Shown here: piece by piece, positions 10,172 to 48,239 of the stretch
How the letters are laid out: the number at the start of each line of letters is the position of its first letter
Position numbering within the stretch: position 1 is the first letter of the stretch
IMG/VR virus record: IMGVR_UViG_3300008448_000147
Coordinates: 1-48,239 of that record
Reading direction: 5' to 3' (one strand)
DNA from: a virus
DNA: 48,239 bases
Program-made: the position numbers and the translations under genes
Notes under the pieces: model-generated
The model's input: the letters and a program-made list of their open reading frames with translations, nothing else
Told to the model about the DNA's origin: nothing
The model's database searches: none

Positions 10172-11104
10172 TTAGGTTGTATATTTAACAAAAGCAATAG
10201 GAATTACAACAGAATATCCGGTTGTAGCACCAGTGATTGTAACTTGTGAAGGAATATAACGTAAAGTACCAGTAGAAGGTGATCTTGTTCCTGTATATAA
10301 TCTTCCTAGCGAATCAAAAAAATATGTGCTAGCTTTTGTTGATGTGCTTGCTTCGATTCCAAAATGAAGCATAGTCCCTCTAGGTCCGTTTATAACTTCA
10401 CCAGTAGAAGAATTTGATGTATTTAAAAAGCTGTTTGGATTATCAGAAACCATTGAAGGATCAGTTCCAAGAGAAACAAAATAACTAGCAATATCATCAT
10501 CATCTATATAAGAAGGAGAAATTGCTTTATTGTTTGAATCAGTTATAGTTCCAAATCTATTATCAATTTCAATAATATATTGAGTTTCCTTAAGTTCAGG
10601 AGGCAAAACATTTACAGCGTTAGTATCTAATCCTTGATCTACTCTAATAATTGGACTCCCAGCTGTGGTAAATCCTCTAAGGACGCCAGTTAATCTAGCA
10701 CTTGCAAATGTTGTAGTAGTTGCGGTAAGATAAGTTTCAGTAGCTGAATCGACAGCCACTAAATAACCATTTACAATCATTTTATTTGTATAATCTCTAT
10801 TATTTTTATTATTTACTTTTACAGTTGGAAGATATAAAAGATTTTTTAAGTTAATAGAAACTAATTTGCTTTTCATAGAAGATGCATTATTTGTAAATGC
10901 TTCTAAAACAGGTGTTTGTAAAATTTGTAAATCAGTGTAAGCACTACCTGTATTAGAAACATATAATCCATAATCTATTTCATCGTCTGCTAAAGCAAAT
11001 TTTGAGATCTTAAAAGATCCATCTCCTCTAGCTAACTTCATTCTACCTGTGTCGGTAAGAACAGCATCTAAAATAATATCACCTGAATTGTTTAAAAAGC
11101 CCAT
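10172..11104 (-). CDS. Structural protein sharing an N-terminal module with the 297-residue protein
   Basis: A 310-residue protein. The N-terminus reads DAVLTDTGRMKLARGDGSF, then ISKFALADDEIDYGL, then ILQTPVLEAFT. The same spaced pattern (L-T-x-x-G-R-x-K, G-x-F, A-x-x-D-D-x-I-x-Y, T-P-x-L) occurs in the protein encoded at 15741-16634. The C-terminal half is Thr/Ser-rich and beta-like (TYFFDSLGRLYTGTRSP, GYSVVIPIAFVKY). GGGAG stands six bases before the ATG, after a 58-base gap with a hairpin. I read it as a baseplate or tail attachment protein; the module may be a docking domain. Confidence 0.7.
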   Translation of the reverse strand: MGFLNNSGDIILDAVLTDTGRMKLARGDGSFKISKFALADDEIDYGLYVSNTGSAYTDLQILQTPVLEAFTNNASSMKSKLVSINLKNLLYLPTVKVNNKNNRDYTNKMIVNGYLVAVDSATETYLTATTTTFASARLTGVLRGFTTAGSPIIRVDQGLDTNAVNVLPPELKETQYIIEIDNRFGTITDSNNKAISPSYIDDDDIASYFVSLGTDPSMVSDNPNSFLNTSNSSTGEVINGPRGTMLHFGIEASTSTKASTYFFDSLGRLYTGTRSPSTGTLRYIPSQVTITGATTGYSVVIPIAFVKYTT

Positions 11105-11116
11105 TTGTGTCTCCCT

Positions 11117-11130
11117 GAAATGTAATTAGT
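11117..11130 (-). repeat. Short repeated leader element, copy 1
   Basis: On the minus strand this reads ACTAATTACATTTC, directly upstream of the GGGAG and ATG of the 310-residue protein gene. A copy with 13 of 14 bases identical lies at 29667-29680, at nearly the same distance before another start. It may be a shared leader or promoter fragment, or chance in AT-rich DNA. Confidence 0.3.
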
Positions 11131-11145
11131 TTCATAGACTAATTA
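11123..11145 (-). other. Intergenic hairpin between two structural genes
   Basis: Perfect 8-base arms at 11123-11130 and 11138-11145 flank a 7-base loop. It lies in the 58-base gap after the 720-residue protein gene, one of the longest gaps in the tail module. All eight stem pairs but two are A-T, and no T-run follows on the minus strand, so a terminator role is doubtful. An mRNA processing or stability role is possible. Confidence 0.4.
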
Positions 11146-11162
11146 TATCTTATTTTTAAAAT

Positions 11163-33000: not shown

Positions 33001-36000
33001 TTGTTCTAGTAGTGTTATACCTCCGTTTACAAGTTCGGTTGTTATTTGATAATAAATTGTACCCATCTTTTCGGCGGCTATTCTTTTAATTTCATCTTGT
33101 ATGCCTGTATTTAACTGTGCTTCTGCTAATATTTTAAATTTTTCTCTCTCTATGTCTGAATTAACTCTTGTGTTTATAATTATTTCAGATAAATTTTTAG
33201 TAATCTCTAGAAAATCCACTCTTTCTAGCGTTTGTGTTAATATTGGAGAAATTACCATATTTGAGGTATCTACATTATTTTTATTTTCATTACTTTCAGA
33301 TTGTTGAGATTGATCATTGGATTTTGGTTTTGGAAATGCATCATCTGACAATTTCCATTGTTTTACTCCGTTTATTTCTTTTTGTTTCGCCCCAGTTTTC
33401 TTTTCATAATCTTCATACTTAATACCACCATTTTCGTCTAATACATAATCTGCTACTAATATGCCTTTTGCAATTAACATTGCTAAAAGTTTTTCTCTAT
33501 TTTCTTCTGCAGCTTTAGTATTTGAAGCGTTAGAGCCGCCCAAAGGAGATGTTGAAGCAGCTGAAAGAGTTTTTATCTCTTCTGGAGTCAGACTTATTTT
33601 AGGATTTTCAATCATATTAGCTGACCACTCTTTTAAGTCGCTATTAAACATTTCATAATATGGCTGTAAAGATCCTTGTAGTGTACCTTGGAACATATCA
33701 AGATAGTTAGTATCAACTTTTGCAGGATTTATAATTCCTGGCTTTCCATTTCTACACAACATAGGTAATTGTTCCGGGGTTCTTGTCACACCGTCCAATA
33801 AATCGGAAAGTCTTTTATTTTTTTCATCCTCTGCATCAGCAATTAAACCCTCAATTTGTTCTGGTGTTAGGCCGTTTTGTGCTAGAGCATCTTTTAATGC
33901 TTTTGTAGCAGATTCCGTAGAACAAATATTGGTATTTTCTTGAGCTATTTGATCTCCTAATTTTTTGCACACGTCTGAAATATTTAAAATCTGTCCTAAT
34001 TTTTGAAATAAGTATTCCACTTCAGATCTGGTTTTTAGTACTGATGATATATTTGGATACTTAGCTTCTATTATAGCTCTGACCAAAGATAAAATATCAT
34101 CTGTTGCTGTACCTTCTGCAATCAATCTACAAATCTCTGTAGGATTCATAAGACATGCAATATCTGCAATTAAATTTTTTAAGTCTTCTTTTGCTCTCTC
34201 TCTTTCTTGTATGTCTTCATCAGAATTTCCTGTAGGAAGCCCCATTGCTCCATATATGTCCGCAATAGAACTATTAGAAAAAGGATTATCTTGATTATCT
34301 AAAATTGCATCTAGTGCTGCAGAAAGACCTAGTTCTTGATCTGAAGTAAAAGGAGAATTTTTGCCTTGTCCTTGTTTTGAACAATTAGCCATAAGTTTTA
34401 TAAGCTCTTTTATAGCAATATTGAAAGTTTCAATTATAGCTTGTGATAATGCAGTAACATACGCATCTCTTAAGGCTTTTGACATATCAGAAGGATTAAA
34501 TTTTGGAACTTTGTAAGCAGCTAAAGCTTTAATTAACATATCCATGAAAGGAGTGCAGAAAAATTTAGTTAAAGCTTCTTGTATCCTTTTTTTTAAATCA
34601 CTATTAAATTGTGAATCTAAATTAGCCAATGCTTGTTGATTATTTGCATCCCTTATCCAACAAATAATTTGTTGTAATAAAGCTCTCTGAAAGTTTGTCT
34701 CTCTTAGAGTTTTTTTGAGAAGATGCAAAGCAGCAGGACCAGGTTTACTCCAATCTCCATAACCAGCATTTTTAATTGCACTAAGGGTATCATCACCAAA
34801 GGTAGGAGGTTCAGGATCTGTTGTTGGTAAAGTAGCTGCTGGAGTTGATGCTGCCTGTTTGTCTGCTTCTGCATCAAAATCTATCCATCTTCTTTTGCCG
34901 CCTCTAGCATAAGCTAGTTGTTTTTTAAAGTTAGCTTCTGCAACAGGTGCTACGGCTTTTATTGAATTATAACCTTTTATAATTCCATCTTCCCAAAGTT
35001 TTTTCATGTTATTTTTTGCACAATCAAAATCTCTTTTAGGGATATCTATTTCTTTTGGCTGTGGAATAACAAATTTTTCTATATACTTATCGATATCTAA
35101 ATTATTTCTAAGCTCTTTATTCCATTCTCCTTCATATGTTGCTAAATCGGTAATAATTTTATATGTACAGTAGTTATATAAAAAGAAGCCGCTTCTATTT
35201 GATATAACCCCATAACTTCCAAATTCATTTTCAAATATATACCCATCAATTACAAAAGTTTGTGCTATACCATCTCTAACGATATCTATATATGCTATAT
35301 TAAATTGATCTGTCAATCCAAAAGCTATATTATTTTTTGTAGCATCTGTATATAAAACATCATGTTCTATGGTATTTATTTCTAATAATTTTTTAATAGT
35401 TATTAAAAAGTTTCCTACATTATCTTTATCATAGAATTTTTTAGCTTCTTTTCTTAAATCTAATTCTATCAACTCTAAATAATTGTCAGCCGTTAAAGCA
35501 CCCATGTACTGATCAGCTGCTTTTAAGGCAAAATTAAATTGCTCCTCTCCTCTACTAGCTAAAATTTTAGATATATCTTTTATAGTTTCAGCAAAGCTAT
35601 TATAGTTTAAAAAACTATAAGTTACTATGTATTTAATATCTTCTGGATTTACTGAGGGATCTAATAGGCCACCAGTAACTCCATCTTTAGCAGCTTGTAG
35701 TGGATCTGCTCTATAATCAATTAAATCAGTAGAAGATAGATATTTTTTAGGAAACACTACAAGTGTATAAAAATTTGAACAAGGTCTAAGTTTTATAGCC
35801 CAATCTCTAGCATATCCGAATAGATAAAATCTATCAGACATTTGTTTTATATAATCTTCAGAGTTTTTCTTAGCGTTAGATTTAAAAATTAATCTTAAGC
35901 CGGTGAAATAAGCATCTTCAACATATTTTTGTATTTTTTCATCAGTAAGTTCAAGGCCATCATATTCCGCTTCTACTGAACAGTAATACAATTCACTCCT

Positions 36001-36759
36001 TTCATCATAATAAACAATAAATGGTTTTTTATCAGACCATCCAATTATATCTGTTTCCTGTAAATAACCAATCCTAGGTATTTCTACTGGCTTTAAAAAG
36101 CTATATTCTAATCCTTCAATTGGAGTAAGCTGGTTTCTTCTTACAAAAAATTCAATAGGGCCAGAATCTAACATTAAAGACACTTTACTAAACAATCCAA
36201 GAATGCCGATAAAATCTTCTACTATGGTAACTGAATATTCAACCTCGGTTTGCTCTGCTTCTCTAGGTGGTCCCAAAGTTTCATTAAAGAAAGTTTGAGA
36301 TATTAAATCTGTTGTTGTGGGTATTGCACCATATAAACCTTCAGATTCTCTTCTATCAATTACTGTATTTGCAACAGTTTTTGGAAATGAAAATTCTTGT
36401 GTTTCTGTAGATGATAAATTATTATCAATCCCCAAATCAGCAGCATAAGGCTCTTGTGGTTGAGCGTCTGGGAATGTAAGACCTTTTAATTCTTCGTCTG
36501 TAAGTTCGTCAAAAATTATCTCTTCTTCTTCCATATTTGATACTGGTGTTTCAGTATTAAAATCTGGCAACACTGAAAATTTAGTGTCTGAATTAGAAAA
36601 TCTTTCAACAACTGGCTGTGTTAAATCTTGGTTAACTATACTATCAAAATCATAGTATACAATCGATCCAACTGATAAAATATGAGTTGGCTTTTCTTCT
36701 CTATATGGTAATCTATTATTTTTATTTAATCTAGCGTATCTATCTGGGCTGTTAGACAT
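30079..36759 (-). CDS. Giant 2226-residue tail protein, hub/baseplate or tape-measure candidate
   Basis: One uninterrupted frame. The first 170 residues are acidic and low complexity (MEEEEIIFDELTDEEL). Residues about 170-560 are mixed alpha/beta. From about 650 to 1200 it is mainly helical with Ala/Gln/Asp-rich segments (AIIETFNIAIKELIKLM). Residues about 1350-1530 look like coiled coil (LDAAKQAEKTATANLDNAQR). The C-terminal 100 residues hold a hydrophobic run, ALTFCFIPPTPFGLAYYLL at about 2143-2161. Length, helicity and a hydrophobic segment would suit a tape-measure protein. However, location between the hub protein and gp25 and the long non-helical N-terminus also suit a baseplate protein. 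I cannot decide between them. Confidence 0.6.
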   Translation of the reverse strand: MSNSPDRYARLNKNNRLPYREEKPTHILSVGSIVYYDFDSIVNQDLTQPVVERFSNSDTKFSVLPDFNTETPVSNMEEEEIIFDELTDEELKGLTFPDAQPQEPYAADLGIDNNLSSTETQEFSFPKTVANTVIDRRESEGLYGAIPTTTDLISQTFFNETLGPPREAEQTEVEYSVTIVEDFIGILGLFSKVSLMLDSGPIEFFVRRNQLTPIEGLEYSFLKPVEIPRIGYLQETDIIGWSDKKPFIVYYDERSELYYCSVEAEYDGLELTDEKIQKYVEDAYFTGLRLIFKSNAKKNSEDYIKQMSDRFYLFGYARDWAIKLRPCSNFYTLVVFPKKYLSSTDLIDYRADPLQAAKDGVTGGLLDPSVNPEDIKYIVTYSFLNYNSFAETIKDISKILASRGEEQFNFALKAADQYMGALTADNYLELIELDLRKEAKKFYDKDNVGNFLITIKKLLEINTIEHDVLYTDATKNNIAFGLTDQFNIAYIDIVRDGIAQTFVIDGYIFENEFGSYGVISNRSGFFLYNYCTYKIITDLATYEGEWNKELRNNLDIDKYIEKFVIPQPKEIDIPKRDFDCAKNNMKKLWEDGIIKGYNSIKAVAPVAEANFKKQLAYARGGKRRWIDFDAEADKQAASTPAATLPTTDPEPPTFGDDTLSAIKNAGYGDWSKPGPAALHLLKKTLRETNFQRALLQQIICWIRDANNQQALANLDSQFNSDLKKRIQEALTKFFCTPFMDMLIKALAAYKVPKFNPSDMSKALRDAYVTALSQAIIETFNIAIKELIKLMANCSKQGQGKNSPFTSDQELGLSAALDAILDNQDNPFSNSSIADIYGAMGLPTGNSDEDIQERERAKEDLKNLIADIACLMNPTEICRLIAEGTATDDILSLVRAIIEAKYPNISSVLKTRSEVEYLFQKLGQILNISDVCKKLGDQIAQENTNICSTESATKALKDALAQNGLTPEQIEGLIADAEDEKNKRLSDLLDGVTRTPEQLPMLCRNGKPGIINPAKVDTNYLDMFQGTLQGSLQPYYEMFNSDLKEWSANMIENPKISLTPEEIKTLSAASTSPLGGSNASNTKAAEENREKLLAMLIAKGILVADYVLDENGGIKYEDYEKKTGAKQKEINGVKQWKLSDDAFPKPKSNDQSQQSESNENKNNVDTSNMVISPILTQTLERVDFLEITKNLSEIIINTRVNSDIEREKFKILAEAQLNTGIQDEIKRIAAEKMGTIYYQITTELVNGGITLLEQWAAGTIEEDAGFWIGLQDLEKRYKGGWDGWWSTLLAGLWAIYELLDVFIADITGAVRTQGAQRVGIGDVSQISTVNRSIRTEAARAAPAGTRVAVAKRADSVYTVTSGDTIVATYDSSYASTIQSKGKTSAEVVVLENEKKAAIDKRAAYENYLNNPSDPNAKSAAERFGITETTQQGLDAAKQAEKTATANLDNAQRQDEFLIPENKLGTTELFAGIDSLAEGISRDIKLFEESFAFKAISGIWTTILDAISGLQSEVSTLDAQLEDARKQLASADIAFPNYDIKYTFGSVISPERARTSEFLSQVSNINITKNLNPFISSSYLEEISPDIAMYIKNNNLLAGYNGSSSIQQYAFEKYMTQIRKIDPKEINYSDIESEFMSDIYNDLKQSFFYKKPDNIGNTPYKNMSNLKKFQATLREPPGTNSDQFCGINNNSLDLDEIIEDVINDFREEACNNEPPNPTGGKRENMHPTERAMSDAFLLATLRVYIYDYFLKGIFLFDKYPIGIVATDPMLEFLSRCFEIEMKSFEPIYYQRFLDQCVSYFYKKNPTESKKIEIKTGERYDTLSARTKKEIFKKVIKSQILYISTRVTKKINNVINEKNAAPWQRLFVYGDETKKYESQYELQQFENYDNIQGHILKFFENRDPSEKIFTVVKNSSQTKVPVAGGRVIDTKGETLELYFKSKKILVTKSKFKKSITFKFLFEFCFPIRKYISVVTMQAIMANNARLQSMKTFFSTKAALKARHNSLMAGNGYKNNNDLGGAPANGGNSTANSGDQEAGWQSLLPLILRLAVQTPWQMLKGLCEVGDPNVFLASLPYNIARPITLAIMNQIPMLPEKTYGPDDLKPPPPRIYEEGALKGLPYAEDVMRRIGFNMSHGLFYATPAAGLALTFCFIPPTPFGLAYYLLGCWYDDFIDDTSNNETVNTTNAINFLNVKSNYKADSCNIARMAKKALKPKIELTEEQMIDLQYS

Positions 36760-39483: not shown

Positions 39484-39768
39484 TTAGTTCTCCTTTATCA
39501 TGTCAAAGAGACCATCAATTTCTCTTTCGGAAAGCTTTTCTTTATTTCCTTCTTTCTTTTGAACGATTGCAGTTAATTTAACCATCTGTTCATTTGATCT
39601 TTGAAGAGTTTCTAAATATTGTGCTGCAATATGACCTAAGTTTTGGTGTGAAGATGCATCATCTTTCATTTTATCTACTAAACGAGTTAAAAGATAGGAA
39701 GCAACTGCTCTATCTTGCTCTATATTTTGTACAGATTTTTCTATAAAATCTTGTAATGATTTACTCAT
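39484..39768 (-). CDS. Small helical protein next to the late sigma factor
   Basis: A 94-residue protein, almost entirely helical by composition (YLLTRLVDKMKDDASSHQNL, AAQYLETLQRSNEQMVKL). It ends in a hydrophobic-acidic tail, REIDGLFDMIKEN. It overlaps the sigma factor gene by 8 bases and has its own GGAG. In T4 the late coactivator gp33 works with gp55 and binds the sliding clamp through a short hydrophobic-acidic C-terminus. That makes a gp33-like role an attractive but unproven idea. Small terminase-like or structural accessory roles are alternatives. Confidence 0.65.
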   Translation of the reverse strand: MSKSLQDFIEKSVQNIEQDRAVASYLLTRLVDKMKDDASSHQNLGHIAAQYLETLQRSNEQMVKLTAIVQKKEGNKEKLSEREIDGLFDMIKEN

Positions 39769-40480
39769 CTTCTTCGCTCCATAGATGTGTTATCTTTCCT
39801 TCATCCCAATCATTTTTAAAGTGTGTATATCTACCTCTAAATTTTTTTAAGTTGTTTACAACTTGTTTTGTACTTAAACCAGTCATCTCTCTTATGTAAA
39901 GATAAATAGCTTTTTTATTAAAAATTTGTATACTTTCGGGACTTTCTAGTAAAACTTTTATAGCCTTAAAGACTTTTAATTCATTTTGCTTCATTTTTTC
40001 AGGTTGCCATGAATCTATTTCTTTCCATAGAGCTGTCCAAAATTCTGTTTCTTCTCTTTTTTGATCGTATGTATTATAAGATATAAAATTTTCATCCTCG
40101 GCTAAATTTCCTATATCATCTATACACACTTCTTTACTGTTTTGTATTTTTTTTACCTTATGGATGAACCAATTTTTTGTAATAACCGAAAAATAAGAAA
40201 AGGCTTTAGACCCTTTGGATACATCGTATTTATCCAATATGGTCGTAAGCCAAATTTTACATTCATCTTTTAAGTCTTGAATATTAGGAAGCGTATTAAA
40301 TTTATACGTATATACAATTTTATCAACCATTTCATTAAACGCTGGTTGTATTAGAGTTATATATAATTCTGTTCTTCTTTTATGATCTATTATAGTTGCG
40401 TATTCTAAAATCGCATCTTCATGCGTCTTAGAAAAATAGATCTTATTTTCTTTGTTATCATTCTCTGTTCTTTTCTTCAA
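39761..40480 (-). CDS. Late-transcription sigma factor, T4 gp55-like
   Basis: A 239-residue sigma-70-superfamily protein (T4 gp55 has 185). The core LKDECKIWLTTILDKYDVSK, followed by KAFSYFSVITKNWFIHKVKK, is a sigma region 2-type stretch: the aromatic/basic helix that binds the core polymerase clamp and melts the -10 element. A C-terminal helix-turn-helix-like segment (IREMTGLSTKQVVNNLKKF) follows. The last residues, THLWSEEDE, are hydrophobic-acidic, as in the clamp-binding tail of gp55. The only plausible start is TTG at 40480, inside the previous gene, preceded by GGAAG. It probably directs host RNA polymerase to late promoters for the tail genes downstream. Confidence 0.85.
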   Translation of the reverse strand: MKKRTENDNKENKIYFSKTHEDAILEYATIIDHKRRTELYITLIQPAFNEMVDKIVYTYKFNTLPNIQDLKDECKIWLTTILDKYDVSKGSKAFSYFSVITKNWFIHKVKKIQNSKEVCIDDIGNLAEDENFISYNTYDQKREETEFWTALWKEIDSWQPEKMKQNELKVFKAIKVLLESPESIQIFNKKAIYLYIREMTGLSTKQVVNNLKKFRGRYTHFKNDWDEGKITHLWSEEDE

Positions 40481-40760
40481 CTTTTTTTTCTTCCTGTTTT
40501 TGAATTATAGTTTCTTTATATACACGACATGCTTCAACGATTAATTTTGTATTCTCTATAGCAATTTTAATTGTTTCATCACCATAGAATTCTTCTAATT
40601 CATAAACAGACTGTAAAGAATTTGAATATTCATTTAATAGTTTCTGAAGTTCATCTACATTAGATATACCATACCATAGATTTTTTACTAACTTTCTACA
40701 ATACCAAATTAATACAATATTTATAAGTGCCGATAAAAAAAGGATTGTTAAAAGTATCAT
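40458..40760 (-). CDS. Small membrane-anchored protein
   Basis: A 100-residue protein with one N-terminal hydrophobic segment (LLTILFLSALINIVLIWY, residues 3-20). A soluble helical part and a Lys/Glu-rich end (EEKKVEEKNRE) follow. The arrangement fits an inner-membrane protein with a cytoplasmic coiled-coil tail. Its ATG overlaps the FmdB-like gene stop in an ATGA junction, and its 3' end overlaps the sigma factor gene by 23 bases, so the three are probably co-translated. No family recognised. Confidence 0.65.
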   Translation of the reverse strand: MILLTILFLSALINIVLIWYCRKLVKNLWYGISNVDELQKLLNEYSNSLQSVYELEEFYGDETIKIAIENTKLIVEACRVYKETIIQKQEEKKVEEKNRE

Positions 40761-41011
40761 TTATATTCTCTTCCTTTAAGTTCTTGTTTAGAATCCAATA
40801 ATAACTTTCTGGAATCCTCTATAAATTTTTCGACTCTTTCACCAGCCATGTCTCTTTCGGATTTTTGTTTAGAATAGGAAGTTAATAGTTGTGGGATTCT
40901 TTCCAAAGTTTCTTTTCCGCACTTTTCACATAGTTTTAAACTTTCATTCATGCTGTGAAAAGAATCAAATTTATATTCACACTGTTTACATTCGTATGTA
41001 TATAATGGCAT
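40757..41011 (-). CDS. FmdB-type zinc ribbon protein
   Basis: An 84-residue protein beginning MPLYTYECKQCEYKFDSF, the classic FmdB/CxxC zinc-ribbon opening. A second pair in CEKCGKETLERI completes a four-cysteine site. A longer start at 41017 is possible, but GGGAG lies only two bases before it. The same GGGAG is seven bases before the ATG at 41011, and family members begin MPLY, so I choose 41011. FmdB-like ribbons are presumed regulatory or nucleic-acid-binding; the C-terminal half is helical and basic. Adjacency to the sigma factor fits a transcription role, by inference. Confidence 0.75.
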   Translation of the reverse strand: MPLYTYECKQCEYKFDSFHSMNESLKLCEKCGKETLERIPQLLTSYSKQKSERDMAGERVEKFIEDSRKLLLDSKQELKGREYK

Positions 41012-41013
41012 GA

Positions 41014-41193
41014 TCATTCTCCCGCTTGGTCTTCCGATAGTTTCATAGCAACAGGTGGATTTACAACAACTAACTCTCCATCTTCTAATTCTAGATCAAA
41101 ACTTTTCATAAGTGGAACAATATCAGTTTGTTCCATTAGACTTTTTTGTAAAGCTACCATAACACATGTTAAAGCTTGGTCAGATAATTTCAT
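41014..41193 (-). CDS. Small 59-residue protein, unknown
   Basis: A frame exactly filling the space between the epimerase gene and the zinc-ribbon gene. It begins MKLSDQALTCVMVALQKSLM and ends VAMKLSEDQAGE. Its ATG is one base after the epimerase stop, and its TGA overlaps the longer ATG option of the next gene. The composition suggests a helix-strand-helix fold, with a Gly-Glu-Leu-Val-Val-Val strand in the middle. No family recognised; it is probably a small regulatory or accessory protein. Confidence 0.65.
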   Translation of the reverse strand: MKLSDQALTCVMVALQKSLMEQTDIVPLMKSFDLELEDGELVVVNPPVAMKLSEDQAGE

Positions 41194-41194
41194 T

Positions 41195-42139
41195 TTATAC
41201 TCCTCTTATATTTGGATAATTTTTTTTAAACCAGTCACAAGTCTTCTTTATCCCTACTTCTAAACTTGTATACGTTTCTTCTTTCCATCCTAAATCTAGA
41301 AATTTTTTATTAGAAGTTGGTTTACGAATTTGTCCTTTTGGTTTTTTATTATCATACGTTATATCACCATTATATTCTAATTCTTTAGAAATTAAAGTAA
41401 TAACATCTTTTAATTTGTATTCTTTAGTAGATCCAATATTTACTGGATCTCCGGTATAATTATTATCTAATAAGAATTTTATCGCTTTAGCAATATCTTC
41501 AGCATAAGTAAACTCACGATAAACTTCACCATCACCCCAAACTTCAAACGATGGTTTATTATTAATTTTTGCCTCCCAGATTTTACGGATTAAAGATGGG
41601 ATAACATGACCATTCTCAAGATCAAAATTATCATGTTCTCCATACATGTTGTTTGGAATAACTGATATATATTCTGTACTGTATTGTTGATTTGCTGCTT
41701 TTAATTGAACATCAACCATACGTTTTGCATAAGCATATCCAAAATTTGAATCATGTGGAGGGCCATTATGAAGCTGATCTTCAGTTAGTGGATAATTTAC
41801 ATATTTTTCGTCTGGGTATATACACGTTGATAGACAACAAATTAACTTTGGGACATCTGTAAATATACAAGATTGAATAATGTTGTTATTTATCTCAGAG
41901 TTTGTGTTATAAAAATCAGAAATATAGCGAGTATTTGCTTTTACTCCTCCAACCTTTCCTGCTAAATGTATTACTGCTTTTATTTTTGATTCGGAGAATT
42001 CATTAAAATTATCAAAATATCGATGAGTATCATCATAGTTTTCTAAGTTTAATTCTTTATGTGTTGGATAGAGAGCATCCGGTAATATTTTTTTAAATGC
42101 ACTTCCAAGTAATCCAGAGCCGCCAGTTATAATAATCAT
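41195..42139 (-). CDS. GDP-L-fucose synthase-like NAD(P)-dependent epimerase/reductase
   Basis: A 314-residue extended short-chain dehydrogenase. The N-terminus has the nucleotide-binding motif TGGSGLLGS at 5-13, followed by HLAGKVGGVKAN. The catalytic set of GDP-L-fucose synthase is present: S104 and C106 in STCIYP, Y135 and K139 in YAYAK, and H178 in GHVIP. NMYGEHDNFD and NFGYAYAKRM are family hallmarks. The enzyme makes GDP-L-fucose from GDP-4-keto-6-deoxymannose. No GDP-mannose 4,6-dehydratase is visible, so the substrate would come from the host or a gene outside the window. Relatives acting on other GDP-sugars cannot be excluded. GAGGA precedes the ATG. Confidence 0.88.
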   Translation of the reverse strand: MIIITGGSGLLGSAFKKILPDALYPTHKELNLENYDDTHRYFDNFNEFSESKIKAVIHLAGKVGGVKANTRYISDFYNTNSEINNNIIQSCIFTDVPKLICCLSTCIYPDEKYVNYPLTEDQLHNGPPHDSNFGYAYAKRMVDVQLKAANQQYSTEYISVIPNNMYGEHDNFDLENGHVIPSLIRKIWEAKINNKPSFEVWGDGEVYREFTYAEDIAKAIKFLLDNNYTGDPVNIGSTKEYKLKDVITLISKELEYNGDITYDNKKPKGQIRKPTSNKKFLDLGWKEETYTSLEVGIKKTCDWFKKNYPNIRGV

Positions 42140-42148
42140 ATAATTCCT

Positions 42149-42562
42149 CTAATATAATTCAGGAAAATCGGTACATACCCCTAATATATTTTTAGGTAGG
42201 TTTTTGTTGTGTCCAAATTCTACCGTAATCCCATCTTGTATATAAACACCAGGAAAACACCATAAATAATTTTTACTAGTTAAAGTAATTTTATCATTTT
42301 CATGCCAAAACCAATTTAACTCAGTATTTTTCAGTCTGATACAAGCATCAAAATTTTTAGCATGTAGCCACATTTTATTGCTAAAGAAAAAATTTGTTAC
42401 TTCGTATGTTGGTAAATCGTGTCCTAAAAACCATTTATTATTTACATACCAAACATCTACTTCAACTTCAAATTTTTTTATTACTTCTAAGATCCTATCT
42501 GGATTGTTTTCCAGATTTCTTTCTATGCCATTTAAATTTCCTCTATGTGATATAATTTTCAT
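42149..42562 (-). CDS. Compact glycerophosphodiester phosphodiesterase-like protein
   Basis: A 137-residue protein with the first three active-site blocks of the GDPD/PI-PLC-like barrel: H6-R7-G in IISHRGN, E34-V-D36 in VEVDVW, and G-H48-D49 in FLGHDLPTY. Full GDPD enzymes have about 230-250 residues, so half the barrel is shortened or missing. The ORF still ends normally and keeps a conserved-looking end (LGVCTDFPELY). Similar short proteins occur, from memory, in capsule-type clusters. It may hydrolyse a glycerophospho group on a glycan, but activity is uncertain. It overlaps the WavE-like gene by 20 bases. Confidence 0.7.
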   Translation of the reverse strand: MKIISHRGNLNGIERNLENNPDRILEVIKKFEVEVDVWYVNNKWFLGHDLPTYEVTNFFFSNKMWLHAKNFDACIRLKNTELNWFWHENDKITLTSKNYLWCFPGVYIQDGITVEFGHNKNLPKNILGVCTDFPELY

Positions 42563-43328
42563 CAGAAATTCTTTCTTTGTATTGTTCTTCTGTTAAATAA
42601 CATGATAAATATTCTGGTTGATTAATCCATTTTCCAATATTTATAATACCTGCAGTGCTTTTTGTATCTATAACCTTATAGTTGTTTAATATATATTTCC
42701 ACGAATCTCTTGTCAGAGTTATGTAGTCTTCTAGGGTTAAATCCTTGTAGATATATTTTTTTATCAGATTAAAAGATAATATATGTTCAGTTCCAAAAAA
42801 AGAATTAGAAAAGTCTGTTTTCTCTAAGTCATCATATACATCACAAATTTTTTTAATATCTTCTTTCATGCCTAAATAAAACCAATCAGAAATTCTAAAC
42901 CAAGGTTTTGGTTCTGATGTGGAGTCTGGGTTTATGGTCATCATATTACTGACCACTACTTTACTATCAAAGATTTTATATTCTCCAAATGCTTTTTCAA
43001 AATTAAAATAACTAAAAATATTTTTAGTTACCAAACAATCATTTCTTATCTTGAATATAAGATCATTTGAACTTTCTTCTAGTGCTTTTTTAAGCCCATA
43101 TAACTGTCTTTTTAGATTGCAATGTTGTTGTACAGGCAATAAACCATTAAAAGGCCCAGGTCCGGGATCTTTACAAAATAATATTTTATCATATCCGCTT
43201 AAATTATTATTTTGTCCTTCCCAAGTTGATATTATTAATTCTCCATCAAACCATTCCCTTATTTGGTTTATGGATCTCTGCACCATATTATTTTGTATTT
43301 CGCCTTGAATTATTACTGTTTTTTCCAT
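42543..43328 (-). CDS. WavE-like glycosyltransferase
   Basis: A protein of 261 residues when started at ATG 43328. The open frame extends to a TTG at 43376, but the family sequence begins at MEKTVIIQGEIQ. The motif IISTWEGQNN, a conserved GPGPFNGLLPVQQHCNLKRQ segment and FKIRNDCLV are the pattern of the WavE lipopolysaccharide-synthesis family. The R-N-D takes the place of a GT-A metal-binding DxD. WavE-type proteins are thought to add sugars to LPS core or capsule. It overlaps the methyltransferase gene by 16 bases. A second protein with a related layout is encoded at 46330-47070. Confidence 0.72.
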   Translation of the reverse strand: MEKTVIIQGEIQNNMVQRSINQIREWFDGELIISTWEGQNNNLSGYDKILFCKDPGPGPFNGLLPVQQHCNLKRQLYGLKKALEESSNDLIFKIRNDCLVTKNIFSYFNFEKAFGEYKIFDSKVVVSNMMTINPDSTSEPKPWFRISDWFYLGMKEDIKKICDVYDDLEKTDFSNSFFGTEHILSFNLIKKYIYKDLTLEDYITLTRDSWKYILNNYKVIDTKSTAGIINIGKWINQPEYLSCYLTEEQYKERISDENYIT

Positions 43329-43921
43329 ACAAAAGAAATTCCATGATCTGTTAAACATTCTTTCTGAACTACCCAATCAAAATTTAAATTTTGGACAAAC
43401 AGTTTTGGTCCTGGATGGTTGTTCGTATCGTGAAATCCAACAATTCCATATTCGGATAATAAGTTTGTAAATTCCCACTCTGCATATACTTGATTTATAC
43501 TATGCCAACCATCTATAAAAATAAAATCTATTTCCTCAACTCCTTTAGATTTTATGAATTCTAATATTTCAGAATAATTTTCAGATTTTGTTTGAAGAGT
43601 ATAAACATTATTCTCTTCGTCATTCAAAAATGAACAATCTCTGATATCTACTCCAATATATACACAGTCTTTGTTTTTGTTTTTTACAAGTGTATATGAA
43701 CTACCAAATTCACTTCTAGCAATTCCTATCTCTAAAATAGCTCTACATCTATCTTTAACTGTTAAAAAATATTTTTTTAAGCTTTCATGATTGCATGGAG
43801 TAAATTCACCATTTTGTCCATCATAATATACATCAGTTGTTTCACTTAGAGGAAGATCTGAATCATCTCTTGAATCATTAAATCTTATGTCTCTTAATAA
43901 ATCAGATTGCCATTTTTTCAT
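43313..43921 (-). CDS. Class I SAM-dependent methyltransferase
   Basis: A 202-residue protein starting at ATG 43921, whose A is shared with the RLP stop codon (TAATG). An in-frame ATG at 43939 lacks a ribosome-binding site. Motif I is ILEIGIARSEFGSS, the acidic end of strand 2 is VYIGVDIRD, and DFIFIDGWHSINQVYAEWE plus VGFHDT complete the Methyltransf_24/cephalosporin hydroxylase-like pattern. Within a sugar cluster it would most likely O-methylate a sugar or a small precursor. Direct translational coupling to the RLP suggests the two act in the same pathway. The substrate is unknown. Confidence 0.8.
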   Translation of the reverse strand: MKKWQSDLLRDIRFNDSRDDSDLPLSETTDVYYDGQNGEFTPCNHESLKKYFLTVKDRCRAILEIGIARSEFGSSYTLVKNKNKDCVYIGVDIRDCSFLNDEENNVYTLQTKSENYSEILEFIKSKGVEEIDFIFIDGWHSINQVYAEWEFTNLLSEYGIVGFHDTNNHPGPKLFVQNLNFDWVVQKECLTDHGISFVWKKQ

Positions 43922-45114
43922 TATTTTACCAATCCCCATTTTTCTATAGCTATATTATATTCAGATTTATAATTTTTATCAATTGACTGTCTCATTGCCA
44001 TAGCACCAGAAATTGTACCATTAGGATGACCATGGACAGCACCACCCGCATTTGCTAGATAGTCAATACCAACTTTTGAAGTTACATACTCCACTAACCC
44101 TGGGTGCATACCACAACTTAATGCTGGGAGTGTGTTTCCATTTCTTAAAGTTGAGATACATTCTAAAATTTCTTCTGGATCGTCATTACTATATCCACCA
44201 ATCATACCAGTTTGGATGGTATCAACGCCCATTAAAGTAGCTAAATAACACATAACCTTCCAAGAAATACTGTATTTATGATCTTTCTCTGTAAAAACTT
44301 TTGCGCCGCTACTCTGATAGTGTAAAAATAAAGGTAGATTTAATTTTCTTATGCTATTATAAGAACCTAAGCCGCTAAACACGTTAATATGTACACCATT
44401 TCCTCCTAATTCATATACTCTTTTTACTCTATCTACAAGAATATGTGGATCACAATTTATGGTGTGACAGAAAACAACTTTACGGTTTTGGCTTGCTAGA
44501 TAATTTGAAACAATCTCTACTCTTTTTTCAAGAGGAGCCACCACTGGGTTGCTCATGATTTCATCTTCTTTGATAAAGTCGGCACCACCATCAACCATTT
44601 GTTTTACCATTTCTAGTAAAATATATGGAGTTACTCCAATTTTTGGCTTAACAATACTTCCGAACAGGGGTTTATTATATTGTCCTGTAAAATTCCTAAA
44701 TCCACTGATTCCAAATTTTGGACCTAAAAAATTGTCTGTAACAGATTTAGGTAATTTTAAATCAATTAATCTACATCTTTCAACTATATCTATATCAACA
44801 TGACCACCCATTAATTGGCATATCATGTGAGAAATTCCATCAGATTGCCAGTCATTGTTTGCAACAGGAAATGCAATATTTACTTCACCTTCAGTTTTTT
44901 CGCTCAATTCTGATTCTGAATGTAAAATAAGGCAAGAATGATTTTGAAACAATTCTTCAGTTTCCCATTCGTTTCTAACATTTGGATTGCCAACGCTTTG
45001 TCCGATTGCTAAATTCCAAGCAGCATCCTTTAAATTAGTTTTTGACTTAATTTTATATTTTGCTATATAATATTTCTCGTAATCCAACTCACTAGTAAAA
45101 ATATTAAATTTCAT
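43921..45114 (-). CDS. RuBisCO-like protein (probable form IV)
   Basis: A 397-residue RuBisCO-superfamily protein: N-terminal alpha/beta domain (1-125) and TIM barrel. K156 and K158 in VKPKIG match spinach K175/K177. K182, D184 and E185 in DFIKEDE match the carbamylated K201, D203 and E204. S333 and G357-G358 match S379 and G403-G404. However, the H294-R295 site reads Q267-S268 (LHYQSSG), the H327 position is Q301, the loop-6 K334 is absent (GGYSND), and E60/N123 are replaced. The enolisation site is thus kept but carboxylation is unlikely. Known RLPs are methionine-salvage enolases or act on sugar acids. It has a GAGGA ribosome-binding site. Nothing in its sequence makes me assign a substrate; the glycan context suggests a sugar phosphate. 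Confidence 0.88.
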   Translation of the reverse strand: MKFNIFTSELDYEKYYIAKYKIKSKTNLKDAAWNLAIGQSVGNPNVRNEWETEELFQNHSCLILHSESELSEKTEGEVNIAFPVANNDWQSDGISHMICQLMGGHVDIDIVERCRLIDLKLPKSVTDNFLGPKFGISGFRNFTGQYNKPLFGSIVKPKIGVTPYILLEMVKQMVDGGADFIKEDEIMSNPVVAPLEKRVEIVSNYLASQNRKVVFCHTINCDPHILVDRVKRVYELGGNGVHINVFSGLGSYNSIRKLNLPLFLHYQSSGAKVFTEKDHKYSISWKVMCYLATLMGVDTIQTGMIGGYSNDDPEEILECISTLRNGNTLPALSCGMHPGLVEYVTSKVGIDYLANAGGAVHGHPNGTISGAMAMRQSIDKNYKSEYNIAIEKWGLVK

Positions 45115-45121
45115 ATTTTCC

Positions 45122-46012
45122 TCATAATTGTAAAATATTTTTTACAATTTCATAATATTTTTCGAAGCATTTTTCGGGAGTGTGAAACTTTGTGTAAGAT
45201 TCATACGCAGCTTCTCCATAGTCAATATATCTCTTATTTTCCATTGTGTAAAGTATTTTTTCTTTTAAATCCTGAAAATCATCTCTTATTTCTATATAAC
45301 TATCGAATAGTATACCATCTTTTGATGTAGATTTTAGTTTTAATTTTGGCATTATTATAGCGCATTTTGTACTTGCCAATTCCCAAGTTCTTTTAGAGTC
45401 ATAAGAATTACCAAAATAATTTAGTCCTATTTTTGAAGAATTTATAACTTCTGTATATTTTTTAGTAATTTTATCAGCTACACCTACATGATCATCAACA
45501 TCAATATGCCAGTTCATATTTTTTAACTCATTCACTGATAGTTGCTTAATGTGCTCAACAAACGGTTTCCTTCTTCCAGAAGTCATTCTTCCTATAAAAG
45601 ATAAATCGATCTCTTTTAATTGAAATCTTTGATCATATTTTGTAGCAACAGGAAAATGAAATCCATATACAGGGCTTTTCCATGGATTTTTTGAATTATC
45701 TGTCAACTCTCTATGCATTATTAAGTCTGGTTTTCTATTGCTCCAAATTTGTATATCTTCAAAGTCGGTATCATCGTGTTGAATAAGATTAGAGAATCTA
45801 TAATATGTATCTATTATTTTATTAGTTATTGGTATAGTATTCCACTCATGAAGATATAAAACAATATTTTGATAATCATGTACTGGCTTAAAATCTGCTA
45901 GGTTTGTTTCATATACATAATCACACTTATAGCCTAATTCTTCAAATTTTTTGAAATAAAAATTTGCATTATCAACCCAAGAATAAGAAAAAAATAAAAA
46001 ATCTTTAGTCAT
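45122..46012 (-). CDS. CgeB-like GT-B glycosyltransferase
   Basis: A 296-residue protein with the layout of the CgeB-like glycosyltransferases (GT-B fold). The N-terminal half is the variable acceptor domain, with YQNIVLYLHEWN and a short EDIQIWSNRKPDLIMHRE. The C-terminal half contains LSFIGRMTSGRRKPFVEHI, then SSKIGLNYFGNSYDSKRTWE. It ends in the ELASTKCAIIMPKLK and FDSYIEIRDDFQDL segments that bind the nucleotide-sugar. GAGG precedes the ATG. It probably transfers a sugar within the local glycan pathway; the donor cannot be read. Confidence 0.78.
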   Translation of the reverse strand: MTKDFLFFSYSWVDNANFYFKKFEELGYKCDYVYETNLADFKPVHDYQNIVLYLHEWNTIPITNKIIDTYYRFSNLIQHDDTDFEDIQIWSNRKPDLIMHRELTDNSKNPWKSPVYGFHFPVATKYDQRFQLKEIDLSFIGRMTSGRRKPFVEHIKQLSVNELKNMNWHIDVDDHVGVADKITKKYTEVINSSKIGLNYFGNSYDSKRTWELASTKCAIIMPKLKLKSTSKDGILFDSYIEIRDDFQDLKEKILYTMENKRYIDYGEAAYESYTKFHTPEKCFEKYYEIVKNILQL

Positions 46013-46333
46013 TTATACCTCATATTTATCATTTGGAACAGAAGCTGTTTTTACAACAACTATTTTGCAATCTTCTAAAAATTCAGGATCTGCTATTTCT
46101 AGCGGTTCAAGAATAAAAATATCACCTGGGTTGATTTCTTTTCCGCATATTACCATCTTACCAGAAATTAAGCAGTTAATTTCTGTAGCAATTTTATGAT
46201 AATGTTTAGGCCACTTTTCACCTTTTTTATGAATAAGTATTCCAACTTCAAAGAGGTCAGTTTTATAAACGCTCGGATTGAAATTTCCTACCATCCAACC
46301 TCTCCACATATTATTTATATTATCTATTTTCAT
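46013..46333 (-). CDS. Cupin-domain protein
   Basis: A 106-residue single-domain cupin. Cupin motif 1 is exact: G followed by five residues, then HYH, four residues, E, six residues and G (from GEKWPKHYH to LISGK). Motif 2 (GDIFILEPLE) lacks the usual histidine, so metal binding would depend on the motif-1 residues or be altered. Cupins in sugar clusters can be epimerases, isomerases or sensors. Its stop is adjacent to the next start. In this cluster it may act on the same precursor as the RLP, which is inference. Confidence 0.75.
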   Translation of the reverse strand: MKIDNINNMWRGWMVGNFNPSVYKTDLFEVGILIHKKGEKWPKHYHKIATEINCLISGKMVICGKEINPGDIFILEPLEIADPEFLEDCKIVVVKTASVPNDKYEV

Positions 46334-47070
46334 CTCTTAAGCCTATATTCTAAATCATATCTTAAATTATTATCTATTGTTAAAGGTATTTTTAGATCAT
46401 TATTTTTTAAAGTATATTCAAGCATGGTTTCTGCAGAAAAATTATTATATTTTTTAAAATTTTCAATACTCAAAGCATAGATATTTTTCATAATATCAAA
46501 AGCTTCAGGTTTTATATATACGATATAGTCTCTTATATTGTAATAATTTTCTACTCCATAAGAATCTCCAACGACAATTTTTTCATCCACAAAATTAAAT
46601 GGCTTTAATAAATCAATATCAAATCGACTTCTGATAAGAAAATCATATTTTTCATAGTTTTTTATAGATTTAAAACCCTCAGACACAGCATACCATTGCG
46701 AAGTTAATCTATTTACTGCCTCTTCTGGTACATTTCCACCTTGATATGTTTTGTATTGACTATTTTCCGTATTCCAAGTTCCATATTTGGTAGGATGTAT
46801 TTCTATATTTTTTTTATTGTATTCAAAAAAACCCCTAGATTCATTTATTACTATCACCTTAGTCCAAGGAGAATAAACAGATAATAATTTTTTCATAGAC
46901 TCTTCAGAGTGATAAAAATCAGTAAGATGATCCGTATTATTCCAGGTGGAGATGTATATATCACAATCATATAAATCTAATAAATTTTTCTTTAAATTAA
47001 GAAATGTATCCATATATGTTCTTAAATGACCGCTTAGTACTAATGCTATTTTTTTATTTTCTGTTTTCAT
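46330..47070 (-). CDS. Glycosyltransferase-like protein, WavE-type layout
   Basis: A 246-residue protein starting with IALVLSGHLRTYMDTF, then CDIYISTWNNTDHL, and later FLIRSRFDIDLLKPF. This order (strand, D-x-x-I-S-T-W, R-F-D metal-binding-like motif) parallels the WavE-like protein at 42543-43328, where IISTWEGQNN and FKIRNDCLV occupy the same places. The C-terminus is helical and Lys-rich. I infer a GT-A-type transferase for a surface glycan. It overlaps the nucleotidyltransferase gene by 17 bases and the cupin gene by an ATGA. Confidence 0.65.
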   Translation of the reverse strand: MKTENKKIALVLSGHLRTYMDTFLNLKKNLLDLYDCDIYISTWNNTDHLTDFYHSEESMKKLLSVYSPWTKVIVINESRGFFEYNKKNIEIHPTKYGTWNTENSQYKTYQGGNVPEEAVNRLTSQWYAVSEGFKSIKNYEKYDFLIRSRFDIDLLKPFNFVDEKIVVGDSYGVENYYNIRDYIVYIKPEAFDIMKNIYALSIENFKKYNNFSAETMLEYTLKNNDLKIPLTIDNNLRYDLEYRLKR

Positions 47071-47782
47071 AAATTTTTATGTCCTCCGGCGTTCCTAAAG
47101 AATAAAATTCACCCTTATTGAGAGAGTGATAACCTATGTTCATACCTTTTTTTATTAAATAATTATATGTTTTAGATACATAAAATTCATTATTAACTCT
47201 ATCATTGTTTTTTAACAATTCCACCGCAGAGTTTACAAAATAGCTTCCTTTTCTCCAATAATGAATACCGCATAAAGCCAAATTAGAAATAGCAGTTTTT
47301 TCATCTAACAGTAGACCTAAATTATTTTCATCTGTTTTTATAAAACTATAAGGACTCTTTTCTCCCACTATTATATTATCATAAGGATAAGTAGCAACAC
47401 AGCCATCGAGATTTTTTCTTCGACATGAATTTAAAAATAAGTTACTATCCCAGATAGTTCTTTGATCACAATTTGTAGTGATAAGTTCTGTATCATTATC
47501 TATAAATTCTTTTGCTAATAATATAGAGCTTACTGTACCATCAGTTAAATAATCAATTTCAATAATTATAGAGTCGGGCTTAGTATTATATAATACATCT
47601 TTTAGCTTATCAGAAAAGTTACTTTTTCTAATTACAAATATATATTGTCCTTCTATTCCTAGACTATCTATAGCGTGTTGAACTATTGTTTTTTCCTCTA
47701 TTTTAATTAATGGTTTTGGATCTAAATATCCCGCATCAAAAAATCTCTTCCCAAGACCAACCATCGGTATAACTATATTCAT
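47054..47782 (-). CDS. Sugar-phosphate nucleotidyltransferase
   Basis: A 242-residue GT-A fold nucleotidyltransferase. The N-terminus, IPMVGLGKRFFDAGYLDPKP, is the nucleotide-binding loop (P-M-x-G-x-G-x-R-F) followed by the PKPLI lysine. TTNCDQRTIWDS carries the aspartate expected to bind Mg2+. The pattern is that of enzymes activating sugar-1-phosphates, or similar alcohol phosphates, to NDP or CDP derivatives. An AAGGA precedes the ATG, which overlaps the HAD gene stop as ATGA, so the two are coupled. Pairs of HAD phosphatase and nucleotidyltransferase are common in heptose and capsule pathways; the exact sugar is unknown. Confidence 0.8.
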   Translation of the reverse strand: MNIVIPMVGLGKRFFDAGYLDPKPLIKIEEKTIVQHAIDSLGIEGQYIFVIRKSNFSDKLKDVLYNTKPDSIIIEIDYLTDGTVSSILLAKEFIDNDTELITTNCDQRTIWDSNLFLNSCRRKNLDGCVATYPYDNIIVGEKSPYSFIKTDENNLGLLLDEKTAISNLALCGIHYWRKGSYFVNSAVELLKNNDRVNNEFYVSKTYNYLIKKGMNIGYHSLNKGEFYSLGTPEDIKIYENRK

Positions 47783-48239
47783 ATGTATTCCTTCATAAGG
47801 TCTATATTAACCTGTTTAGCATTATCGACTTTTATTATAAAAGCGCCGGCACCAGAAGCTGCTTCAATTCCTTTTGGAGAATCTTCCACTATTATAGTTT
47901 CGTTTGGAGAGACATTAAAAAAATTAATACAATTTATATAACCTTCTGGGTTTGGTTTTGGAGAATTAACGTCTTGATTTGTGATCAGTTTATCTAACGA
48001 GGATAAAACACCTGCTTTTTTCAGGATCAATTCGGCAGTTTTTCTTATGCTATTAGTATAGCAAGCAATTTTAATATTTTTATCTTTTAAGTATTTTAAT
48101 AGTTCTACTTTAGAAGAATCATACGCGCAAAGATCATTTATTAATTTTATAGTATTTTCTTGTTTTAGTGATTCTATGGTATCAAATAAATTTTCTGTGA
48201 CCATCCCTTTATCTTTTAATTTTTTTAATTTTATTTTTG
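47779..48239 (-). CDS. HAD-superfamily phosphatase, partial
   Basis: The frame is open to the window edge, so the N-terminus with the catalytic DxD motif is missing. An internal ATG at 48204 is unlikely to be the true start. Motif II is ACYTNSIRKTAE, motif III is K in NSPKPNPEGY, and motif IV is ETIIVEDSPKGIEAA with the VEDS acidic pair. These are the features of beta-phosphoglucomutase/phosphoglycolate phosphatase-type subfamily I HADs. It would remove a phosphate from a small sugar phosphate. It is coupled by ATGA to the nucleotidyltransferase gene. Confidence 0.82.
   Translation of the reverse strand, partial: KIKLKKLKDKGMVTENLFDTIESLKQENTIKLINDLCAYDSSKVELLKYLKDKNIKIACYTNSIRKTAELILKKAGVLSSLDKLITNQDVNSPKPNPEGYINCINFFNVSPNETIIVEDSPKGIEAASGAGAFIIKVDNAKQVNIDLMKEYI

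Follow-up and report, generated by a model that had tools for sequence, protein, structure and literature searches.

A recurrent viral gene cassette pairs a RuBisCO-like protein with a sugar-phosphate nucleotidyltransferase

The virus record IMGVR_UViG_3300008448_000147, a stretch of 48,239 bases that was analysed whole and is called the window below, ends in a module of ten genes on its minus strand (41195-48239), among them a RuBisCO-like protein (RLP; 43921..45114) and a sugar-phosphate nucleotidyltransferase (NTase; 47054..47782). We read this region as a phage nucleotide-sugar/glycan cluster with a mobile four-gene core, in which the RLP would act on a ribulose-phosphate-type ketose and feed the NTase, and we put the probability of this reading at roughly 0.55. 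The recurring core consists of the NTase, a single-domain cupin (46013..46333), the RLP and a miniature GDPD-like phosphodiesterase barrel (42149..42562), often with a methyltransferase-like gene (43313..43939). An earlier, sequence-only reading had treated the ten genes as one unit and missed the most notable element, the RLP paired with the NTase.

Relatives were collected from IMG/VR by a single-protein RLP scan (54 loci) and by an RLP profile scan (tblastn, E <=1e-3) that gave 297 stretches, of which the best 80 of 297, at 55-100% identity, were used; the viral status of each record is IMG/VR's own assignment. Relatives of the window proteins were counted in 61 loci: the RLP recurred in 58, the NTase in 54, the GDPD-like gene in 45, the cupin in 43 and the methyltransferase in 31. 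The remaining genes were variable: the transferases were found in 9 (46330-47070), 6 (GT-B) and 5 (WavE) of these loci, the GDP-L-fucose-synthase-like (Fcl-like) gene in 8 and the HAD gene in 5. The idea that all ten genes form one conserved unit therefore fails, with variable genes in 5-9 of 61 loci against 58 of 61 for the RLP. Same-contig duplicates were removed before counting (three from this count, five from the adjacency count, 11 plus the window from the count of cassette versions and record G379 from the chance control), and two longer records of the window's own phage, L002 and L003, are both included in the first three of these counts. Without these two, the 59 remaining loci hold the RLP in 56, the NTase in 52, the GDPD-like gene in 43, the cupin in 41 and the methyltransferase in 29.

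Adjacency was counted on the same strand, in 71 viral loci with at least 3 kb on both flanks and in 17 cellular loci flanked by 1.5 kb on either side. Within 3 kb of the viral RLP lay the NTase in 69/71 loci, the cupin in 57/71, the GDPD-like gene in 53/71 and the methyltransferase in 35/71; the cupin was at most 50 bases away in 48/71. The same 3-kb count gave 15/17, 3/17, 10/17 and 0/17, respectively, for the cellular loci, so the cupin is not part of the core in cells. Chance placement does not account for the NTase and GDPD-like associations. Eighteen large records were searched whole, ignoring strand, and G379 was dropped as a near-duplicate of G008. Of the 17 remaining records, 16 had the NTase no more than 3 kb from the RLP, compared with 0.94 expected and a maximum of 5 in 20,000 random placements, and 13 had the GDPD-like gene within 5 kb (1.15 expected, maximum 7). 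Outside this phage, identity to the window protein was 53-76% for the RLP, 43-66% for the cupin, 35-47% for the NTase and 31-49% for the GDPD-like protein. Clustering at 90% identity reduces the 104 full-length viral RLPs, a number that contains same-contig duplicates, to 63 groups. One viral record (L047) has its RLP frame interrupted by TAG/TAA stops, for which recoding or errors could be the explanation. A contig of a Crocinitomicaceae metagenome-assembled genome (L067) is identical to viral locus L111 in its GDPD-like and cupin sequences, and may itself be viral.

The RLP was found by tblastn in 0 of 50,697 GenBank phage records. A scan of prokaryotes, with one genome for each of 84,980 species, gave at least 23 RLP loci, a lower bound since only two short peptide patterns were used; ten were SAR11, and the other hosts included Patescibacteria, archaea, Legionella and Azospirillum. 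A single clade with support of 100/99 unites 36 viral with 22 cellular RLPs in our 91-row tree, and is separate from RuBisCO of forms I/II and III and from four OiaX, three OiaX-like and one MtnW reference. This tree has long branches, including that of the MtnW reference (L363), and its references are limited to the groups just named, DeepYkr, photo, AMC and GOS sequences being no part of it.

All 58 sequences of this clade retain K175, K177, K201, D203, E204, S379 and G381, and thus the carbamylated lysine and metal ligands (K201, D203, E204), and in all 58 the catalytic H294 is replaced by Gln and loop-6 K334 by Tyr, so the residues required of a carboxylase are missing. At R295, 43 sequences have Lys, 14 have Ser and 1 has Arg; at H327, 40 have His and 18 have Gln. 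Position 177, Lys in this clade, is Ala in OiaX and Gly in the MtnW reference. With a RuBisCO large-chain domain and an incomplete catalytic set, the protein is a form IV RLP in the broad sense. It falls well short of the equivalog models for MtnW (NF007095, 164 vs 409 bits; TIGR03332, 138 vs 513.6) and OiaX (140.9 vs 700 bits), and its clade is separate from the references that pass them (L363 for NF007095; L354-L357 for OiaX). By established RuBisCO chemistry, the clade has retained the enolising lysine and the metal site and has lost the CO2-handling lysine. This combination points to enolisation or isomerisation rather than carboxylation, which is the chemistry we infer for the RLP in its cassette, and to judge from these residues the window RLP probably cannot fix carbon.

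What the RLP may act on is suggested by the cassettes that lack it. Across 274 loci around this one NTase family, 82 have an NTase-RpiB fusion and 124 an RLP, and none has both. In the RLP version, 101 viral loci have within 5 kb the NTase in 92, the cupin in 73, the GDPD-like gene in 81, a HAD gene in 9, a PfkB gene in 2 and RpiB in 0. The 82 loci of the RpiB version carry a PfkB-like gene in 80, a KdsC-like HAD gene in 76, the cupin in 76, the GDPD-like gene in 75 and the RLP in 0; the RpiB domain of the fusion matches PF02502 at 4.8e-30. A third version, 67 loci with neither RLP nor RpiB, has a HAD gene in 51, as a HAD-NTase fusion in 39, and the cupin in 10. RpiB was found in 0/17 large RLP records (the family was matched in 7/14 control genomes), and the RLP in 0/20 RpiB records (the same profile matched 18/18 RLP records in a separate search). 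Cultured phages also carry these variants: Synechococcus phage S-SKS1 has the NTase fused to DHBP synthase (PF00926, 5.4e-65), and phages B23 and S-CAM9 have a HAD-NTase. Relatives L158, L372 and L373 have HAD and NTase joined in one protein. RpiB and DHBP synthase share the substrate ribulose 5-phosphate. Because they occupy the RLP's place beside the same NTase, we propose a ribulose-phosphate-type substrate for the RLP.

Cassettes of different types also occur beside the same downstream genes. Parts of the window's downstream block are shared by RLP-type loci L042, L099-L101 and L110, by HAD-type loci L152, L158 and L207, in which the HAD domain was confirmed by profile, and by RpiB-type locus L210, which counts against a pure lineage effect. 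Two annotations in cultured phages conceal these fusions: the S-SKS1 protein annotated as DHBP synthase (L369 7001-8428) is the NTase-DHBP-synthase fusion, and a Synechococcus phage Bellamy protein annotated as a phosphatase (L371 7492-8649) is an NTase-RpiB fusion. Relatives of the S-SKS1 fusion are carried by 11 IMG/VR loci, 10 of which match into the DHBP part.

Structural matches of the cupin and the GDPD-like protein also favour our reading. The nearest PDB entry to the NTase is 4evw (5.7e-34), which is named a nucleoside-diphosphate-sugar pyrophosphorylase. For the cupin model (pLDDT 95.6) the best PDB match is 7zvm (E 3.5e-6), a cupin-type phosphomannose isomerase from an archaeon; further cupin families, dioxygenases among them, rank close behind the phosphomannose isomerases. 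The 137-residue GDPD-like barrel was modelled with a pLDDT of 95.4. Its top five VIA-align rows are all GDPDs, the best being 1v8e (Z 9.8, root-mean-square deviation 3.1, 130/137 residues); by Foldseek a GDPD ranked first, although no match fell under E 0.001. The motif HR...EN...ExD...HD is kept, with H6, R7, E18, N19, E34, D36, H48 and D49 invariant in 26/26 sequences and G8 in >=90%. Both this motif and the modelled barrel fold agree with the GDPD superfamily. A scan of IMG/VR gave at least 589 relatives, of which 80 were used. Among 53 GDPD-like loci the NTase lay within 4 kb in 49 and the RLP in 7, so the NTase and the GDPD-like gene together form a wider core. The GDPD-like gene was present in 16 GenBank phage records, all with the NTase, which itself was in 19 records (duplicate submissions included).

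We propose a model where the RLP enolises a ribulose-phosphate-type ketose, giving an isomerised or rearranged sugar phosphate, and the cupin may add a second isomerisation or epimerisation. From this product the NTase would make a nucleotide sugar, with the HAD protein possibly trimming or moving a phosphate beforehand, and the GDPD-like protein would make or break a phosphodiester of the activated product. The variable transferases, the methyltransferase and a Gmd/Fcl-like pair could then build and decorate a glycan of the host surface or the virion. In its most specific form, which we hold tentatively and rate a little short of an even chance, this mainly viral RLP clade would have a hitherto undescribed RuBisCO-superfamily activity in glycan biosynthesis: it would turn ribulose 5-phosphate, or a ketose phosphate close to it, into the precursor of a new sugar or polyol in nucleotide-activated form, replacing RpiB or DHBP synthase, with the GDPD-like protein closing or trimming a phosphodiester of that product. 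The product is most likely a glycan of the surface or the virion, the candidate targets in phages being the host surface, the virion and DNA; superinfection exclusion and virion decoration, suggested by the sequence-only reading, are candidate roles.

The cellular relatives are in keeping with a glycan product. The neighbours of the core in SAR11 locus L069 are a gene of the GDP-mannose dehydratase family (4.2e-137), further epimerase-family genes, a Glycos_transf_4 gene and an O-antigen ligase family protein. Archaeal locus L079 encodes a flippase-type protein of a polysaccharide biosynthesis family, a GT2 gene and a full-size GDPD (PF03009, 1.2e-21). The prediction of a glycan-type sugar module thus holds up, with some cellular RLP relatives in O-antigen-type or polysaccharide loci, and these loci support a surface-glycan role in cells. 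In three Legionella loci (L085-L087), the RLP-NTase pair adjoins a divergent LicD-like gene, with the motif in 3/3 and a LicD-family Pfam match in L086 (PF04991, 1e-42). LicD relatives move phospho-groups from CDP donors, which hints at a CDP-linked product.

Several observations weigh against the proposed role of the RLP. The pair of GDPD-like gene and NTase is commoner than the RLP, and no NTase lies near the RLP in viral loci L043 and L089 or in cellular loci L070 (as counted on the same strand) and L083; the cupin, too, is seldom near the RLP in cells. Different baits were used to collect the loci, which are a sample with near-copies rather than a census. Phage lineage could explain why RLP and RpiB exclude each other: among GenBank records with this NTase family, the 18 that name a host, some of them duplicates, are all Synechococcus phages and none has the RLP. 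Nor is the swap one-for-one, as RpiB cassettes add a kinase and a phosphatase that are mostly missing from RLP cassettes, and both of these labels are under their cut-offs (KdsC-like, TIGR01670, 72 vs 107 bits; PfkB-like, PF00294, 19.5 vs 25.8). RLP and HAD genes coexist in the window's phage and, with a single NTase, in L037, L044, L045 and L104, and the GDPD-like gene was found in 0/11 DHBP-synthase-type loci.

Other explanations can be set against the same data. The region may be an ordinary variable cyanophage cluster of the lipopolysaccharide (LPS) type, with the RLP an interchangeable sugar enzyme and no common product. Jumbo cyanophage clusters with epimerases, cupin isomerases, PfkB kinases, NTases, transferases and O-methyltransferases have been described (PMC7824862; for this and the other papers cited by PMC number, statements refer to excerpts of the text), half of the ten genes vary freely, and upstream of the module this phage has Gmd-like, HldC-like and PfkB genes and two more glycosyltransferase-family genes. 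However, the core recurs far above random placement where this was tested (NTase and GDPD-like gene), the RLP is more conserved relative to the window than the others of the set, and the word rubisco is absent from the available text of PMC7824862; we consider this explanation unlikely, though one to be taken seriously. It is less plausible still that an activated pentose-type sugar is made for glycosylating the phage's own DNA, as in RB69, whose cytosine is arabinosylated, and Thanatos, which has a deoxypentose on cytosine and a UDP-xylose pyrophosphorylase (PMC12838424). RpiB does suggest a pentose, but the SAR11 and archaeal relatives sit in polysaccharide loci, and the thymidylate-synthase/dCMP-hydroxymethylase family (PF00303), present in 3/8 large RLP records, was found in 0/2 records of this phage, which may be fragments.

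The closeness of cupin and RLP in viral loci, often with a methyltransferase nearby, recalls methylthioadenosine (MTA) salvage by the MTA-isoprenoid shunt of Rhodospirillum rubrum, where a DeepYkr RLP serves as the isomerase of methylthioribulose-1-P and methanethiol is removed by a cupin (PMC5893883). Yet the persistent partner of the RLP is a sugar NTase, which is missing near the RLP in 2/71 viral loci compared with 14/71 for the cupin, and the clade stands apart from the one MtnW reference and retains K177, which that reference lacks, making such a shunt quite improbable. We give even less credence to the GDPD-like gene as a phosphorus-scavenging auxiliary gene in an incidental neighbourhood. 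Phage ugpQ has been classed as a phosphorus-acquisition gene (PMC10987575), and its link to this GDPD-like family is putative; against this, the NTase lies within 4 kb of 49/53 GDPD-like genes and is present in 16/16 GenBank phage records that have one (duplicate submissions included). Finally, if the phage carried the RLP as a metabolic gene for carbon fixation or a RuBisCO-like carboxylation, this would agree with the intact K201/D203/E204 triad and with the rbcL reported for landfill viruses (PMC12607003). Such a carboxylase is scarcely credible in view of K334 Tyr and H294 Gln in 58/58 and of family scores far under their cut-offs (rubisco_III, 159 vs 497 bits), and we rejected it on the active-site residue table.

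All ten open reading frames (ORFs) expected of the module were found on the minus strand from 41195 up to the end of the window, and the tight packing seen earlier is confirmed, with nearly gapless spacing of -64 to +9 bases. The -64 overlap results when the WavE ORF is taken to begin at its first TTG; its true start is probably further in. Pfam matches above cut-off back the labels of the Fcl-like, WavE, RLP, GT-B, NTase and HAD_2 genes. The variable genes are a HAD_2 hydrolase resembling beta-phosphoglucomutase (47779..48239; PF13419, 7.2e-22), truncated 5' by the window end and complete at 202 residues in L003 (PF13419, 5.5e-31); a putative glycosyltransferase (46330..47070) whose sole match, phrog_13607, is of unknown function; a GT-B-type glycosyltransferase (45122..46012; PF13524, 1.6e-5, barely above cut-off); a WavE-family transferase (42543..43376; PF07507, 7e-22); and an Fcl-like epimerase (41195..42139; PF01370, 7.6e-45). 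The name fucose synthase stands at the level of the epimerase family, as the NF047922 equivalog gave 234.3 bits, under its cut-off of 500. The S-adenosylmethionine (SAM) methyltransferase-like gene, a frequent partner of the core, matches PF13578 (5.3e-4) below cut-off, at 21.3 vs 26.3 bits, leaving that label less secure. Within the core, the RLP matches PF00016 (1.9e-33) and PF02788 (4e-4), and the NTase matches phrog_3980 (1.3e-60) and, barely above the Pfam cut-off, PF00483 (1.3e-4). The cupin (phrog_24762, 2.8e-37) and the GDPD-like protein (137 residues; phrog_34507, 1.4e-17) had no Pfam match (tested at 0.01 for the latter), and their labels come from PHROG families without named function, motifs and confident structure models.

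Window positions 20000-44900 had no match in a near-identity search of GenBank phages. Around the module, 54 sigma-70-type promoter-like sites were found vs 56.4 expected, and across the whole window 17 T4-type late promoter motifs (TATAAATA) vs 15.9 expected, so we make no promoter claim; terminator-like sites around the module numbered 6 vs 2.9 expected.

Two longer records, L002 (126,749 bases) and L003 (187,450 bases), carry an identical RLP and match the other nine module proteins at 100%; they are the same phage as the window. Upstream of the HAD gene, L003 has a cupin_2 protein, a 109-residue HAD protein that is capsule-phosphatase-like (TIGR01689, under cut-off), a PfkB kinase scoring as HldA-like (TIGR02198, 153.9 vs cut-off 345 bits) and a cytidylyltransferase-like gene scoring as HldC-like (TIGR02199, 176.5 vs 181.5 bits). 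Farther upstream are two ORFs without a family match and two glycosyltransferase-family genes (PF00535, 1e-19; PF00534, 1.4e-13). The GDP-mannose dehydratase that the sequence-only reading proposed to look for upstream is present at family level in both longer records (L385 7620-8618; PF16363, 2.1e-115, 385.9 bits). PF16363 is a broad family, matched in 14/14 control genomes too, and against the equivalog TIGR01472 (gmd) the gene scores 392.4 bits, narrowly under the cut-off of 415. Together with the Fcl-like protein it could yield a GDP-6-deoxyhexose. With these upstream sugar genes, the cluster is about 14 kb long. The next gene beyond the dehydratase-like gene is of the PD-(D/E)XK nuclease family. 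The same phage encodes a Clp protease (L385 15136-15729; PF00574, 1.6e-27) and a PIN-PhoH protein (10392-11726; PF02562, 9.9e-53). A 452-residue ORF (L385 12625-13983) without a Pfam match shows by eye a CxxCH motif (CMSCH) as in c-type cytochromes, and a 227-residue ORF (L385 9413-10096) shows by eye a metalloprotease-type HEIAH motif, its single Pfam match being to a metalloprotease-type family at 21.8 vs cut-off 27.4 bits.

Downstream, a 59-residue ORF on the minus strand (41014..41193) overlaps the next gene by 4 bases and fills an apparent gap, so the run of genes is continuous. That next gene, an FmdB-like zinc ribbon (40757..41017, minus strand; PF09723, 2.6e-11; phrog_1076, 2.4e-4), heads a conserved downstream block and has homologues in 8 loci beyond this phage. 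The module had been described as running into a sigma factor and late genes. Baseplate genes do follow (gp25-like, PF04965, 4.9e-13; baseplate wedge, phrog_219), but the name sigma factor is unproven, since the 239-residue protein so called (39761..40480, minus strand) matches neither Pfam nor PHROG; it has homologues in 19 loci (18 contigs) beyond this phage. The block of FmdB-like, 100-residue, 239-residue and 94-residue genes (39484-41017) is a conserved junction in related phages, where different sugar cassettes adjoin it, and is possibly an insertion hotspot. Two very large window ORFs, 16668-26420 (3250 residues) and 30079-36759 (2226 residues), have no Pfam match.

RLPs are known from methionine salvage and sugar-acid breakdown; the present clade recurs in viral cassettes for sugar activation. 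Should the RLP feed the NTase, glycan synthesis would be among the roles of the RuBisCO fold, carried mainly by viruses in the collections that we searched. The exchange with RpiB and DHBP synthase leaves a short, directly testable list of RLP substrates. The RLP-NTase link also calls into question the reading of phage rbcL-like genes as carbon fixation, and the link between the GDPD-like gene and the NTase may do the same for phage GDPD genes as phosphorus scavenging.

Among known systems, the pathway to nucleoside-diphosphate (NDP)-heptose runs in the order isomerase, kinase, phosphatase and NTase. RpiB cassettes resemble it in having an isomerase, a PfkB-like kinase, a KdsC-like HAD protein and an NTase, as does the window phage in its HldC-like and HldA-like genes (both under cut-offs). 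RLP cassettes differ from it, being mostly without the kinase or phosphatase. We found no description of an RLP-NTase cassette among the titles and abstract openings listed from the open-licence PMC literature, subscription papers and preprints being outside this scope, and nothing on a phage RLP in the excerpts available of PMC9875498 and PMC11421388. The LPS-type clusters of T4-like and jumbo cyanophages such as P-SSM2, described as surface-modifying and proposed to remodel the surface against rival phages, hold epimerases, a cupin, a PfkB kinase, a HIGH-type NTase, many transferases and methyltransferases (PMC7824862). The window phage has all of these gene types, its methyltransferase below the Pfam cut-off; absent from those excerpts are the RLP, the pairing of GDPD-like gene and NTase, and the swap among RLP, RpiB and DHBP synthase.

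Two reports of RuBisCO homologues may be likened to this clade by description. Global Ocean Sampling data included 65 homologues outside known forms, with no viral cassette or neighbour given in the available text (PMC1821046); with SAR11 accounting for 10 of our 23 cellular loci, these may overlap the RLP clade. A virus-encoded RbcL-like gene from a landfill virome groups with RbcL-like proteins and was placed under carbon fixation, with no neighbourhood given in the excerpts (PMC12607003). Like the form IV RLPs, namely the MtnW enolase, the OiaX decarboxylase and the R. rubrum DeepYkr isomerase, our clade belongs to the RuBisCO large-chain family and has an intact carbamate/metal triad with an incomplete carboxylase set. 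Unlike the MtnW and OiaX references, it combines a retained K177 with Gln at H294 and Tyr at K334, occurs in the context of a sugar NTase, and is mostly viral in our scans.

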